Source: Gracilibacillus suaedae (GTDB lineage: Bacteria; Bacillota; Bacilli; Bacillales; Amphibacillaceae). Taken from it: 64,000 bases of DNA. The position numbers and the translations under genes were made by a program. Every line of letters starts with the position of its first letter. The stretch's first letter is position 1. Location: assembly GCF_017599345.1 (NCBI RefSeq), contig NZ_JAGFVL010000045.1:29506-93505 (forward strand), in the 5' to 3' direction. Positions 3,881 to 54,240 of the stretch are shown here, piece by piece. The notes under the pieces are model-generated. The model searched no databases, was not told the DNA's origin, and was given only the letters and a program-made list of their open reading frames with translations.

Positions 3881-4000
3881 ATGTCGAAACAACGTAAAAA
3901 AGAAAAACCTAATTATGCTCCTACAAATCCGGATGAAAAAATGCCTGATAAGCAAAAAAGAGGAAGAGGGAAATCTCCTTCTCGAGGTAATCCGTTGTAG
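3881..4000 (+). CDS. small basic hydrophilic protein
   Basis: A 39-residue product starting MSKQRKKEKPNYAPTNPDE and ending RGRGKSPSRGNPL. GGAGGG lies six bases before the ATG. It is rich in Lys, Arg and Pro with no hydrophobic segment. The size and composition recall minor small acid-soluble spore proteins, but I cannot match it to a named Ssp family. It lies about 170 bases upstream of the phospholipase A2-like gene on the same strand. Confidence 0.55.
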   Translation: MSKQRKKEKPNYAPTNPDEKMPDKQKRGRGKSPSRGNPL

Positions 4001-4173
4001 AATGAGTACCTCATTAATTTGGAAGAAGGGAGGAAGTTCATCCTTCCTTCTGACTTTCAATCTCCACTCTACGATAAATCCACTTTTTCGCCATGCTATC
4101 TATCCTATTCATGACTTGAAAACGGAACATATAATATGACAAAGTCTATAAATTAGAAGGGGGAAGATCTCCG

Positions 4174-4413
4174 ATGCCGTGTTTACCTGGTTATCGATAT
4201 TGTGGTCCAGGCTGTAGTGGGCCGGGTGTGCCATTGAATCGATTAGATGTTTTTTGCATGGAACATGATGATTGTTACCGACGACATCGATCTCATCAGT
4301 ATTGTGATGATGTATTCTTGAAGAAATTACAACCATATATCCAACGTAGAGATGAAATCGGTAGAAATGCAGCTCTTATGTACCGAGCTATCTTATTTAA
4401 AAGAGGGTTATAG
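4174..4413 (+). CDS. small phospholipase A2-like protein (parvovirus VP1-type PLA2 motif)
   Basis: The 79-residue product carries the PLA2 signature. A calcium loop, YCGPGCSGPG (9-18), is followed by PLNRLD and then CMEHDDCY (28-35), where His31-Asp32 is the catalytic pair. Cys10, Cys14, Cys28, Cys34 and Cys44 can form the usual disulfides. This arrangement is known from parvovirus VP1 and from small Bacillus proteins annotated after it. There is no signal peptide, so how it meets its lipid is unclear. AGAAGGGGGAAG precedes the ATG. The length covers only the core of the fold, with one C-terminal helix after the active site. Function is inferred from motifs. Confidence 0.75.
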   Translation: MPCLPGYRYCGPGCSGPGVPLNRLDVFCMEHDDCYRRHRSHQYCDDVFLKKLQPYIQRRDEIGRNAALMYRAILFKRGL

Positions 4414-4427
4414 TTCAAATAGAAAAA

Positions 4428-4463
4428 CACATTAGTGTATTGAACTTTACTAATGTGATTTTA
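4428..4463 (+). terminator. terminator after the PLA2-like gene
   Basis: CACATTAGT pairs with ACTAATGTG across a 12-base loop and is followed by ATTTTATT. Confidence 0.7.
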
Positions 4464-4501
4464 TTGATTTCAATTTTTACCAAGTTGCTAACCGTCCGTA
4501 A

Positions 4502-4648
4502 AATCTTACTTGTAGAAAACAGGTTCTTCATAAAGCAGACAAACATCACTTGCTACACGGAATCCATTCACCAGAAGAATTGTGGAGTTATCACCGCCCA
4601 TTTTACCTAGACTTTTACCCAATTATGGTTTTGGTGAATAAGATGTAG
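4502..4648 (+). pseudogene. possible C-terminal gene remnant
   Basis: An open frame of 48 codons without a usable start reads like a real protein tail (HSPEELWSYHRPFYLDFYP, then an MVLVNKM end). It stops at 4648, twenty bases before the YqcI-type gene. I cannot identify the parent family. It could be chance, but the composition (W, Y, P, H) is unlike random AT-rich sequence. Confidence 0.2.
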
Positions 4649-4668
4649 TAGGGCGTGAGGTGATTATT

Positions 4669-5397
4669 TTGAACAAATTGTATAACAACGAAATAGCGAA
4701 GCGAAAACAGCTTGACCCTTGGGAAAAATCTATGGTTTTCCATTTTGAAGAAAATATGACAGACAGAGAATACCCGTTTCCTTGTATCCCGGCAACGATT
4801 GGCTATGTGTTAAATCAAATAAGGTATGGATTTGTAGGGGACCCAACTGAGGAAGAAACGGTTCAAGCACTTGCTGAATTATTGAGTATATATGCAGTGC
4901 AATGCAAGAAATTTGGAGAATACACTTCACTGATCATATTTTATAGGTTACCTGAGGAGATTAAGAAAACATATACGATCGAACAATACGAACAGTTATT
5001 TTGGCAACAGTTGAATAAGCTTGTCGGATACGATAAAGAAGCATGGCCGGGTGAAATTCCAACTGATCCCCATCACCATATGTGGGAATTTAGTTTTCAT
5101 GGTGAAAGATTTTTCATGTATTGTGCAACACCAGCACATCAAAAACGAAACAGTAGAGGTTTTCCTACATTGATGTTAGCTATTACTCCAAGGTGGGTGT
5201 TTCAACAATTTAACGAATCGAAACACGCTGAGAAGATAATGAAAAAAGTAAGAAAAAGATTAAAAAATTATGATTCCATCTCGGTTCATCCGGAGTTAAA
5301 ACCATATGGAGCAGAAGATAATTTTGAATGGAAACAGTATTTTTTACGAGATGACAACCAAACGTTATCGAGATGTCCCTTTCATTATAAAAAGTAA
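4669..5397 (+). CDS. YqcI/YcgG family protein
   Basis: Family of unknown function found in Bacillus and many other bacteria. Diagnostic blocks are FPCIPATIGY near the N-terminus, WPGEIPTDPHHHMWEFSFHG and the core FMYCATPAHQKRNSRGFP, then the C-terminal QYFLRDDN with a Cys and His near the end. I prefer the TTG at 4669 because GTGAGGTG lies six bases before it. A GTG at 4660 is in frame but badly placed relative to any ribosome site. The product has 242 residues, the usual family length. Conserved His and Cys residues suggest a metal- or haem-binding enzyme, but that is inference. Confidence 0.8.
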   Translation: MNKLYNNEIAKRKQLDPWEKSMVFHFEENMTDREYPFPCIPATIGYVLNQIRYGFVGDPTEEETVQALAELLSIYAVQCKKFGEYTSLIIFYRLPEEIKKTYTIEQYEQLFWQQLNKLVGYDKEAWPGEIPTDPHHHMWEFSFHGERFFMYCATPAHQKRNSRGFPTLMLAITPRWVFQQFNESKHAEKIMKKVRKRLKNYDSISVHPELKPYGAEDNFEWKQYFLRDDNQTLSRCPFHYKK

Positions 5398-46279: not shown

Positions 46280-47452
46280 ATGGAAAATGTACATAGATAT
46301 ACCAATCTATTAAATGAAGAAAAAAGAACTACAGTATGGTTTTTGTGGTTGTTTTATATTATTTATTTTGGATATGAAATAATATACTATTATATCTTAC
46401 CTCAAATGCCTTGGAATATAGTTGCTAGTGGAGTAAAAACTATATTAGATCTCTATTTATACGTCATTATTTTGGCGTTACTACCCATAGCATTATATTT
46501 ATTAAAACAAAATAGACCATCTTCTGTAAAATACATTTACTTTATTGTTTTTACCGTAGCAAATGTCATCATAGAATTAATATATTTTTCATCAAATAAT
46601 GAAACTTATAGTGCTGGAAATATTGTGGAAATGGTATTTGTTTTATTTTCCCCTATTTTTGTTAATAAAAGATTCTTTTACTTTGTATCACTAATACAAA
46701 TTTCTAAGTATATTTTTATTGGTATAGTTTTAAACCAGTTCGTGGTAATGATTCCTCTATTATTATTAGTAGTATTTGCAATAGTTGCATGTATAGTCTT
46801 ATACAGGTTCCTAGGGTACGTAAATTCTCTGAAAACTTCTTATGATAATCAGTTGGAAGGGATCGTAAAAGGTGTTATTGCGACCTTAGAGTTAAAAGAC
46901 CCATACACTAGAGGGCACAGTGAAAGAGTTGCTAATTATGCTATGATTCTTGCAAACTCTTTAGAAGAATTCAAAAAACAAGATCTAAAACTATTTTATT
47001 ATGCTTGTTTATTACATGATGTAGGTAAAATTCATATTTCAGATGTAATCTTGTCAAAACCAGGAAAGTTAACAACAGAAGAATTTGAACTTATCAAATC
47101 TCATCCCGTAGTAGGGGCAGAAGCTGTTCAAGATGTTGAAGGAATTAAAGAATACATAACAGTAATTAGAGATCACCATGAACGTTGGGATGGGAAAGGT
47201 TATCCTACTGGTAAAAAAGCCGAAGAAATAAATGTTTTTGCTCGCATAACAGCGATTGCTGATGCTTTTGACGCAATGACATCTTCTCGCTCATATCGTG
47301 AAGCAATGACTTTAGAAAAAGCGTATGAACAGGTTATTAATGCTAGTGGCTCCCAGTTTGATCCAATCCTTGTGGAAAAATTCAAAGAAATTTTTCCGCT
47401 ATGGATTGAATATCATAAACAATATTATGAAGAAGGGAGAGATAACAAATGA
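46280..47452 (+). CDS. six-TM HD-GYP domain protein (c-di-GMP phosphodiesterase-like), candidate peptide receptor
   Basis: A 390-residue membrane protein. Six helices fill the N-terminus (about 19-40, 53-75, 84-104, 113-128, 131-152, 154-178) with almost no extracellular domain, resembling the sensor part of AgrC-type receptors. A short linker leads to an HD-GYP domain (about 200-375). The metal and signature residues are present: His213, His246-Asp247 and Lys250 (LLHDVGK), His275, His299-His300, and GYP at 307-309 (HERWDGKGYPTG). The expected activity is c-di-GMP hydrolysis. ATG 46280 follows AGAAGGGA. Its stop codon overlaps the start of the 21-residue peptide gene, and a PqqD/M50 protease gene follows. 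A role as receptor for the mature peptide is inference. Confidence 0.85.
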   Translation: MENVHRYTNLLNEEKRTTVWFLWLFYIIYFGYEIIYYYILPQMPWNIVASGVKTILDLYLYVIILALLPIALYLLKQNRPSSVKYIYFIVFTVANVIIELIYFSSNNETYSAGNIVEMVFVLFSPIFVNKRFFYFVSLIQISKYIFIGIVLNQFVVMIPLLLLVVFAIVACIVLYRFLGYVNSLKTSYDNQLEGIVKGVIATLELKDPYTRGHSERVANYAMILANSLEEFKKQDLKLFYYACLLHDVGKIHISDVILSKPGKLTTEEFELIKSHPVVGAEAVQDVEGIKEYITVIRDHHERWDGKGYPTGKKAEEINVFARITAIADAFDAMTSSRSYREAMTLEKAYEQVINASGSQFDPILVEKFKEIFPLWIEYHKQYYEEGRDNK

Positions 47453-47514
47453 AGATCCGTAAACTAAAAAGCGTTAAAGCAACTTGTTGGTGGTGTGCAC
47501 ATGTATGGTGGTAA
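47449..47514 (+). CDS. Trp/Cys-rich 21-residue peptide, candidate RiPP or pheromone precursor
   Basis: ATG overlaps the HD-GYP stop (ATGA) and AAGGGAGAG lies eight bases upstream, an excellent ribosome site. The product is a basic 12-residue leader (MKIRKLKSVKAT) followed by CWWCAHVWW: four Trp, two Cys and one His in nine residues. A perfect intrinsic terminator begins four bases after the stop, so most transcripts would end here and the peptide would be made in excess. The next gene has a PqqD/RRE-like leader-binding domain fused to a membrane zinc protease. These four facts make it a probable processed peptide. The nature of the modification and the mature form are unknown. Confidence 0.8.
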   Translation: MKIRKLKSVKATCWWCAHVWW

Positions 47515-47517
47515 TTG

Positions 47518-47543
47518 GATGCTATTTTAGCATCTTTTTTTTT
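47518..47543 (+). terminator. intra-operon terminator between peptide and protease genes
   Basis: GATGCTA, loop TTT, TAGCATC (perfect 7-bp stem) followed by T9. It lies between the peptide stop and the protease ribosome site, and would lower protease expression relative to the peptide. Confidence 0.88.
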
Positions 47544-47556
47544 AGGAGGGGATTCT

Positions 47557-48741
47557 ATGAATCTATCATTGAATTCAACTATCTTGCTACATGATCTAAT
47601 TATTAAAAAAGAAAGTAACTTTTTCATAGTTGAGAACAGCTCTACAGGTGAATTTTATCAAATGCCAAAACCTGCTATAGAAGCAATAGACAAAATAAAT
47701 AAAAGTCAAAATCTAAAGGATATTGAACTATATTTAGAAAAAAACTATCCAGAAGAAGATATTGATATTATAGAGTTTATTAAACAACTTCTTGATTTAG
47801 GACTAATAAAAGCGATTGATAACGAAGAAATAGCTTTCAATAGTATCAATTCTTCAGCAACAGGTTTTAAATGGATATCTCCAAGGATTGCGAAGGCAAT
47901 GTTTAATAAGTGGACTTTACCCCTATTTCTCATTATTTTAACGATAAATGTTTGTATGTTTATTTCATTTCCACATTATACTCCAACTTTTATGGACATA
48001 TTTATATTCGATTCTATGGTAGCAAATTTGTTAATATACTTGCTACTATCCCTTATCCTAATCATATCTCATGAGTTTGGGCATATTTTAGCCATTAGGT
48101 CATTCGATTTGCCTGCTAGTGTTAATGTAGGACACAGATTGTTTTTGGTCGTTGTCGAAACTGACTTAACTGCTGGTTGGAAACTACCATCGAAAAAAAG
48201 GAATATACTGTTTTTGGGTGGAATGTTCATTGACCAACTGATTCTGTTTACTGTATTATTAGTCAAATTGACAGTAGCTATTGATCATTATCTTATTAAT
48301 GGAATCTTATCGGTAGTAGTACTTGACATATTTATTAGAACAATTTATCAGTTCTGTTTCTATATGAAGACGGACTTATACTATTTAGTAGAGAACATGA
48401 CAGGTTGTTATAATTTAATGGAGAACGGTAAGAATTATATGGCAAAATGGATCCCATTTATTAAAGTAGATAAAACAAGTACTACATTCGAAGGGGAAGA
48501 AAAAATAGTAAAATTATATGGTCTATTTTCCTTCATAGGAGTCATATTAACGATGAGTTTATTCATTATATATTTCATTCCCCAAACGATTTACTTAATG
48601 GTAAATACACTACCACACTTAATGAATCCGATCGGTAACCCCTACTTTTGGGATGCACTGGTAATCGTTGCACAATTCATTCTAATGATAAGTTTATTGA
48701 TTTATTCGATTAGAAAAAAGAGAAAATCAGCTTCAGCTTAA
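47557..48741 (+). CDS. PqqD-like domain fused to membrane M50-type zinc metalloprotease
   Basis: A 394-residue protein. Residues 1-90 read as a PqqD/RiPP-recognition domain (FFIVENSSTGEFYQMPKPA, LKDIELYLEKNY, a QLLDLGLIKAI end). Residues 120-385 form about seven helices. The zinc site is SHEFGH (His172, Glu173, His176) with a third-ligand candidate Asp273 in FYMKTDLYYLVENMTGCYNL, the order of peptide zinc metalloproteases such as YydH. ATG 47557 follows AGGAGGGG. Probably it binds the leader of the upstream peptide and cleaves or exports it in the membrane. No radical-SAM, cyclase or ABC exporter gene is adjacent. Confidence 0.85.
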   Translation: MNLSLNSTILLHDLIIKKESNFFIVENSSTGEFYQMPKPAIEAIDKINKSQNLKDIELYLEKNYPEEDIDIIEFIKQLLDLGLIKAIDNEEIAFNSINSSATGFKWISPRIAKAMFNKWTLPLFLIILTINVCMFISFPHYTPTFMDIFIFDSMVANLLIYLLLSLILIISHEFGHILAIRSFDLPASVNVGHRLFLVVVETDLTAGWKLPSKKRNILFLGGMFIDQLILFTVLLVKLTVAIDHYLINGILSVVVLDIFIRTIYQFCFYMKTDLYYLVENMTGCYNLMENGKNYMAKWIPFIKVDKTSTTFEGEEKIVKLYGLFSFIGVILTMSLFIIYFIPQTIYLMVNTLPHLMNPIGNPYFWDALVIVAQFILMISLLIYSIRKKRKSASA

Positions 48742-48752
48742 GTTATGTAATT

Positions 48753-48785
48753 AAAAAATCGAGCTGCAATAGCTCGATTTTTTAC
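48753..48785 (+). terminator. terminator at the end of the peptide cassette
   Basis: AAAAAATCGAGCT pairs with AGCTCGATTTTTT around GCAAT. Confidence 0.88.
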
Positions 48786-53667: not shown

Positions 53668-53699
53668 GGGATACCAAATCAAATTGGTATTCCCTCTTT
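53668..53699. terminator. terminator shared by copZ and the PilZ gene
   Basis: GGGATACCAA pairs with TTGGTATTCCC and CTCTTTA follows. The genes on either side converge. Confidence 0.75.
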
Positions 53700-54240
53700 A
53701 ACGTACGCCGACCATATTTGACTTTTTCTTCTTTTCGACCATTACTTCATTTAATACTTTAGTGAGACGAATTCTTTCTTTTTCTGACATTTTATGAAAT
53801 TGTACACCATACGCTATTTGTTTCTTTTTCTTATGCTCTTCTTTTCGGATAACCTCCCCATTTAAAGTAAATTGGTACGATTTAATCGAAATATTTAATT
53901 TGACTATCACGCGTTCTTTAACGGGAAAATTAAAATTGCATAAAAACATTAAGCCACTAGTACTGATATTATCTACGTAGCCATAAAATTGTTTGTCCTT
54001 TAATCGCGATAGTTGAGCGTTTTCTAAGTGGATTAGTGTAATTAAACATGGGTGATGATGTAAAGTAATACGAAAATTATTTCGTATGTTTGCTTCAGTC
54101 AGTTCAGGATTAGCTGGAGTACGAGACTTTTTTTGATGGTCTTTTGATTTTTTATGCTTATAACAGAATGTAAAAGTGATGATAAGAGCAATTACAGATA
54201 TGACGATTTGAGTCAGGACAATCAGTTCAATATGAAACAC
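53698..54240 (-). CDS. membrane-anchored PilZ domain protein
   Basis: A 180-residue protein with one N-terminal helix (about 5-27) and a PilZ domain (about 52-165). The c-di-GMP-binding residues are present: Arg53-x3-Arg57 (RNNFR) and DNISTSG (90-96). It ends in a Lys-rich stretch. It is probably a membrane-bound c-di-GMP effector, which is relevant because a HD-GYP protein is encoded 7 kb away. Monocistronic. The target is unknown. Confidence 0.82.
   Translation of the reverse strand: MFHIELIVLTQIVISVIALIITFTFCYKHKKSKDHQKKSRTPANPELTEANIRNNFRITLHHHPCLITLIHLENAQLSRLKDKQFYGYVDNISTSGLMFLCNFNFPVKERVIVKLNISIKSYQFTLNGEVIRKEEHKKKKQIAYGVQFHKMSEKERIRLTKVLNEVMVEKKKKSNMVGVR

Follow-up and report, generated by a model that had tools for sequence, protein, structure and literature searches.

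A three-gene cassette of about 2.5 kb lies on the plus strand of a 64,000-nucleotide stretch of the Gracilibacillus suaedae genome (contig NZ_JAGFVL010000045.1, positions 29,506 to 93,505; hereafter the window). It encodes a MASE12-HD-GYP membrane protein (46280–47452), a small peptide with a CWWC motif (47449–47514) and a predicted M50-type membrane protease (47557–48741). We read the cassette as a self-contained peptide-signalling circuit, with a probability of about 0.6, in which the peptide would be matured by the protease and the product sensed by the HD-GYP protein, which would hydrolyse cyclic di-GMP (c-di-GMP). The best reading of the cassette is an autocrine or quorum-type circuit.

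Conservation of the cassette

Searches with the M50 protein covered 159 genomes of the family, and searches with its alignment (A1) covered 397 genomes of the order, 299 of the class and 249 of the phylum; these samples overlap. Matches of 324–856 bits (single protein, family search) or at least 385 bits (profile) were taken as close relatives, and a weak family match (G002, E-value 7.7e-4) was set aside. Close relatives were found in 36 family, 43 order, 8 class and 1 phylum genomes, giving 73 distinct cassettes in all. The order HD-GYP, peptide, M50 was retained in every one of them, with a MASE12-HD-GYP gene directly upstream of the M50 gene and a CWWC-type peptide between the two. Because a counterpart occurs in 73/73 cassettes, the peptide is not a chance open reading frame (ORF). 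A preliminary description of this DNA had named conservation of the short ORF as the point on which its reading would turn; no close HD-GYP/M50 pair lacks the ORF (0/73), all three genes are conserved together (73/73), and the amino-acid sequence of the ORF is itself conserved, as described below. MASE12 or CWWC was found at none of 37 distinct distant M50 loci, which are part of the distant matches from the order and class searches.

The window M50 protein shares 88% identity with its G. lacisalsi counterpart, and named relatives known from protein matches alone occur in Virgibacillus, Ornithinibacillus, Lentibacillus, Aquibacillus, Sporosarcina, Solibacillus, Ureibacillus and Alkalihalobacterium. 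In the window, the ATG of the peptide shares an ATGA with the stop codon of the HD-GYP gene. This overlap, pointed out in the preliminary description, holds for the window and not as a general rule: the two genes overlap in 29/73 cassettes, by an exact ATGA in 12, and the peptide start ranges from −29 to +91 nucleotides relative to the HD-GYP stop. Single loci depart from the common layout in other ways. A decayed cassette (L042, genome G022) retains remnants of HD-GYP and M50 in broken frames and a CWWC that is still readable in one frame, an insertion of ~600 bases separates the peptide from M50 in L022, and L146 carries a second MASE12-HD-GYP gene (3962–5116) in tandem, upstream of the cassette's own.

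Co-divergence of the peptide tail and the sensor

The peptide gene in the window (MKIRKLKSVKATCWWCAHVWW, 21 amino acids and a TAA) consists of a conserved basic leader of 12 codons (47449–47484), the CWWC motif (47485–47496) and a hypervariable tail, AHVWW (47497–47511); the conservation of the leader shows in per-position entropies and codons. Across the 73 cassettes, the leader has 12 residues in 71 peptides, with the majority form MK[IV][RK]KLxK[IVL]K[VTA]T, and 13 and 14 residues in the other two. The motif is CWWC in 72 peptides and CWFC in one, both cysteines being invariant. The tails, by comparison, are 2–9 residues long and include 68 different sequences; 60 peptides have F, W or Y at the second position of the tail. 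The peptide of L078, for example, is MKIRKLKKVKATCWWCGWKWY. The ratio of nonsynonymous to synonymous differences (pN/pS) is 0.15 for the leader (codons 2–12) plus CWWC versus 0.86 for the tail, values that are rough since pS is near saturation. Substitutions in the leader are mainly synonymous (pN 0.11, pS 0.75), and Leu6 is spelled by six codons. A protein search of the host's own genome found a single copy of the peptide. Judged from these sequences, a fixed head with a diversifying product fits a precursor with a head recognised by the cell's own machinery, and the peptide is likely to be the precursor of an undescribed bacterial signal.

The proposed receptor is a membrane protein of 390 amino acids and a predicted c-di-GMP phosphodiesterase. 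Pfam assigned its N-terminal part to MASE12 (residues 13–174, 46316–46801; E-value 4.3e-36) and its C-terminal part to HD_5 (residues 201–362, 46880–47365; E-value 1.1e-32). In the AlphaFold2 model, the MASE12 part forms six helices, of which one spans only 13 residues, in agreement with the six-helix membrane protein proposed at the outset. The catalytic domain has the HD-GYP fold with intact HDxGK and HHExxDGxGYP motifs. Its predicted substrate is c-di-GMP; another cyclic dinucleotide is possible, as V-cGAP3 also matches. Signalling by c-di-GMP is likely in the host, since its genome has 7 GGDEF matches. A PilZ-domain protein with a hydrophobic N-terminus (53698–54240, minus strand; E-value 5.2e-12), encoded ~5 kb from the cassette, is a possible c-di-GMP receptor.

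Four domains (MASE12, RRE-type, M50 and HD-GYP; RRE, RiPP recognition element; RiPP, ribosomally synthesised and post-translationally modified peptide) were compared over 71 cassettes. MASE12 is the fastest-diverging and HD-GYP the most conserved, with mean p-distances of 0.57 for MASE12, 0.51 for M50, 0.50 for RRE and 0.32 for HD-GYP. When the other domains were taken out, tail distance correlated with MASE12 (r 0.08, p 0.022); no correlation was seen for HD-GYP (p 0.42), RRE (p 0.36) or M50 (p 0.26). Among 39 close pairs, the median ratio of MASE12 to HD-GYP divergence was 2.62 where the tails differed (34 pairs) versus 1.67 where they were equal (5 pairs; one-sided p 0.0016), and the same contrast had no effect for RRE (p 0.38) or M50 (p 0.28). 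The MASE12 effect of a tail difference was also seen in 18 disjoint close pairs (p 0.023). L109 and L110, for instance, have different tails, and their proteins differ by 2.6% in HD-GYP and by 26% in MASE12.

In close pairs with different tails, the first predicted outer loop of MASE12 is the most variable part (0.45 per site), on a topology inferred from the cytosolic position of the catalytic domain. In helices 1, 5 and 6 the outer half is more variable than the inner one, a contrast that is missing from helices 2 and 3; the conservation of helix 4 and of the linker equals that of the HD-GYP domain (0.10). MASE12 is also largely confined to genomes that carry the cassette. This co-occurrence, and a sensor divergence that tracks the tail, lend indirect support to the HD-GYP protein as the peptide receptor.

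At least 22 of the 71 cassettes (including L104–L115, L119, L121, L147 and L194–L198) have a MASE12 histidine kinase gene as their immediate upstream or downstream neighbour; by Pfam, the adjacent kinase of L104 contains HisKA and HATPase_c. In 17 cassettes with such a kinase, tail distance correlated with the sensor of the HD-GYP protein (r 0.45, p 0.001).

The predicted RRE-M50 protease and the proposed circuit

The third gene encodes a protein of 394 amino acids, assigned by alignment and structure comparison to M50-type membrane metalloproteases with an N-terminal RRE fold. Its HEFGH zinc motif (residues 172–176, 48070–48084) was confirmed, and His172, Glu173, Gly175 and His176 are invariant in 35/35 aligned sequences while Phe174 varies. 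Lys271, Thr272 and Asp273 of a KTD motif are likewise invariant in the 35 sequences, and Asp273 (48373–48375) is a candidate third zinc ligand. An HExxH in a membrane helix together with a distal Asp is the arrangement of site-2-type M50 proteases, and the window protein has it, with Asp273 as the candidate ligand. The predicted fold of about residues 7–89 (47575–47823) matches lasso-peptide B1 RREs and PqqD in structure comparison, whereas the Pfam PqqD model gave no match on the protease; the PqqD-like N-terminus noticed earlier therefore stands as a fold and not as a Pfam assignment. The cassette thus has both an RRE fold in one of its proteins and a precursor with a conserved leader and a variable core, as expected of an RRE-dependent RiPP system.

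We propose that one message is likely to carry HD-GYP and the peptide, and that a hairpin 3′ of the peptide would lower M50 expression. RREs bind leaders as an added beta strand, and the fold suggests the same mode of binding here for the basic leader of the MKIRKLKKIK type. The M50 active site would then cut near the Thr-Cys junction, by analogy with EpeP, and the protease would pass the product, CWWC plus tail, through the membrane, perhaps with a small disulfide loop formed by oxidation. The six-helix MASE12 domain would read the variable tail and set HD-GYP activity, as the co-divergence of tail and sensor suggests. Lowered c-di-GMP in general favours motility and non-biofilm states, and motility or other non-biofilm states would be favoured here. 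The Agr-like peptide-maturation circuit with a second-messenger output that the preliminary description put forward is, overall, supported by the constant presence of the ORF and by the RRE fold.

Several observations weigh against this circuit. The family-wide correlation between tail and MASE12 is small, the pairs are not independent, and Mantel-type tests remove shared ancestry incompletely; over the 39 close pairs, tail distance and the MASE12/HD-GYP ratio give a rank correlation of only 0.28 (p 0.09). For the 17 cassettes with an adjacent kinase mentioned above, the tail does not correlate with the sensor of the adjacent MASE12 kinase (r 0.07, p 0.32), and MASE12 kinases occur without the cassette in 10/397 order genomes; on both grounds, MASE12 may read something else too. 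The Pfam M50 match of the window protease is below the Pfam cut-off, and its M50 fold match is within the range that helical bundles can reach by chance. Finally, neither a dedicated peptide exporter nor a tailoring enzyme was found in the cassette or in eight neighbouring genes scanned with Pfam.

The eight neighbours encode a cytidylyltransferase, a major facilitator superfamily (MFS) transporter, a 3-hydroxyacyl-CoA dehydrogenase, a deaminase, a release-factor-like protein, an SRAP protein, a metal-sensitive repressor and a P-type ATPase, the MFS transporter being the second gene upstream of the cassette. No radical S-adenosylmethionine (radical-SAM) enzyme, ThiF or ABC transporter is among them. 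A terminator-like hairpin followed by a T run (47517–47535) lies in the gap between the peptide and M50 genes, and another (48752–48784) lies 3′ of M50; the hairpin scan gave 2 such sites in the scanned stretch versus 0.9 expected from shuffles. The former hairpin, like the HD-GYP, peptide and M50 genes, is located where the preliminary description had placed it. GGATGC/GCATCC-like stems recur in many relatives, and the stem letters GGATGCTA...TAGCATCC are nearly unchanged across genera, beyond what a terminator needs; a few relatives (L030, L053, L104 and L113) have a different stem at this place.

Alternative readings and known systems

The strongest competitor, though an unlikely one, is that the peptide is not exported and acts unprocessed, as a regulatory microprotein binding MASE12-HD-GYP or M50 in the membrane. 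In its favour are the small size of the peptide, with one basic and one aromatic end, and the lack of a dedicated exporter in the cassette; a direct intracellular partner would also fit the tail-MASE12 co-divergence. However, the protease has an RRE-type fold, a kind that binds leader peptides, and processed precursors, too, combine a fixed leader with a free tail. Slightly less probable still is an epipeptide-like antimicrobial matured by M50, with HD-GYP as a co-regulated bystander or resistance switch instead of a receptor. Bacteriocins can show such tail diversification, and the M50 intramembrane protease EpeP helps to make the antimicrobial EpeX (PMC10885120). On the other hand, HD-GYP is the direct neighbour in 73/73 cassettes with the most conserved of the four domains, tail divergence goes with MASE12 and not with the other domains, and a radical-SAM gene or ABC exporter is not among the eight scanned neighbours. 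There is little to recommend the CWWC pair as a redox or metal switch, by which the peptide would report thiol-disulfide state or metal to the membrane proteins: the two invariant cysteines would suit it, but it has no need for a hypervariable tail that changes alongside the sensor. An attenuator leader, in which ribosomes stalled at Trp or Cys codons would control read-through of the hairpin into M50, is highly improbable. A Trp-rich ORF before a terminator-like hairpin would suit it, but the whole leader is under amino-acid selection with free synonymous change, the region in the window folds no better than shuffles (z −0.79), and M50 is not a Trp or Cys biosynthesis gene.

The signalling circuit has partial counterparts among known systems. 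AgrBDCA comprises a leader with a variable signal region, a membrane protease and a membrane receptor with a sensor part that diverges along with the signal, and the cassette shares this layout, its signal-tracking receptor being a proposed one. They differ in that the cassette has an M50 metalloprotease where Agr has the cysteine protease AgrB, and an HD-GYP output where Agr has a histidine kinase and a response regulator. Pfam found no AgrB-type cysteine protease in the cassette proteins or the eight neighbours, and no histidine kinase receptor or response regulator was found in the window cassette or these neighbours. The parallel with AgrB drawn previously is one of function, the protease itself being M50-type like EpeP. 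In streptococci, the tiny precursors ComS and SHP (short hydrophobic peptide), some with a WW motif, are matured with the M50-type protease Eep, re-imported and bound by cytosolic Rgg/ComR. The cassette too has a tiny precursor and an M50-type protease, but it is linked to a membrane sensor, and no Rgg/ComR-type regulator gene was found in the cassette or the eight neighbours scanned. In the RpfR system of the Burkholderia diffusible signal factor (BDSF) and the dCACHE cyclases of autoinducer-2 (AI-2), a quorum molecule is also read directly by a c-di-GMP enzyme; those signals are non-peptide, and the tabulated receptors use PAS and dCACHE, not MASE12-HD-GYP.

Like the cassette, EpeXEPAB (yyd) of Bacillus subtilis combines a short precursor with an adjacent M50 intramembrane protease. 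Its radical-SAM epimerase and ABC pair are not among the eight neighbours scanned, whereas the cassette has a CWWC peptide, a constant MASE12-HD-GYP partner and an RRE fold on the protease. Maturation by M50 has precedents: EpeP is reported to suffice for EpeX production and is considered likely to cleave the peptide and export it, with some production left after its deletion, and substrate peptides are cut by TglG and TmoG (PMC10885120). In the order sample, most distant M50 relatives adjoin a ThiF-like E1 (by eye; Pfam-confirmed in two tested), and RRE-ThiF enzymes make RiPPs (PMC12250964). These PqqD-M50 loci, which are perhaps uncharacterised RiPP clusters, lack MASE12 and CWWC, while the cassette and its eight scanned neighbours lack ThiF. 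By eye, the distant PqqD-M50 gene is directly downstream of a ThiF-like E1 in L084–L095, L097 and L100 (L094 confirmed by Pfam) and follows a solute-binding-like protein instead in L096, L098 and L099. A small ORF, MKLKVKKLKAVKLPMFRWQT, accompanied by a ribosome-site-like stretch and a hairpin, lies before a further distant M50 gene, the second of genome G300 (L101; 156 bits, Pfam PqqD E-value 0.0019); the leader is of the same type and the core different, MASE12 is absent, and a ThiF gene lies on the other strand.

Literature searches on MASE12, CWWC peptides, HD-GYP with pheromones or autoinducing peptides, and M50 with PqqD found no such system, in line with the earlier statement that no described system with this arrangement was known. 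Each part comes from a known family, and the combination is new within the literature searched. The chances are about even that the cassette represents a new quorum-sensing class in Bacillus relatives, in which a single RRE-M50 protein would mature and export a peptide of leader, CWWC and tail, and this would be the MASE12 ligand that directly switches a c-di-GMP phosphodiesterase; tail and MASE12 would define species-specific pherotypes, and some lineages would have a second MASE12 protein, a kinase, beside the cassette. If so, the MASE12 sensor domain would gain a ligand, peptide maturation would gain a one-protein route in the RRE-M50 protease, and studies of specificity could draw on about seventy natural pairs of signal and receptor.
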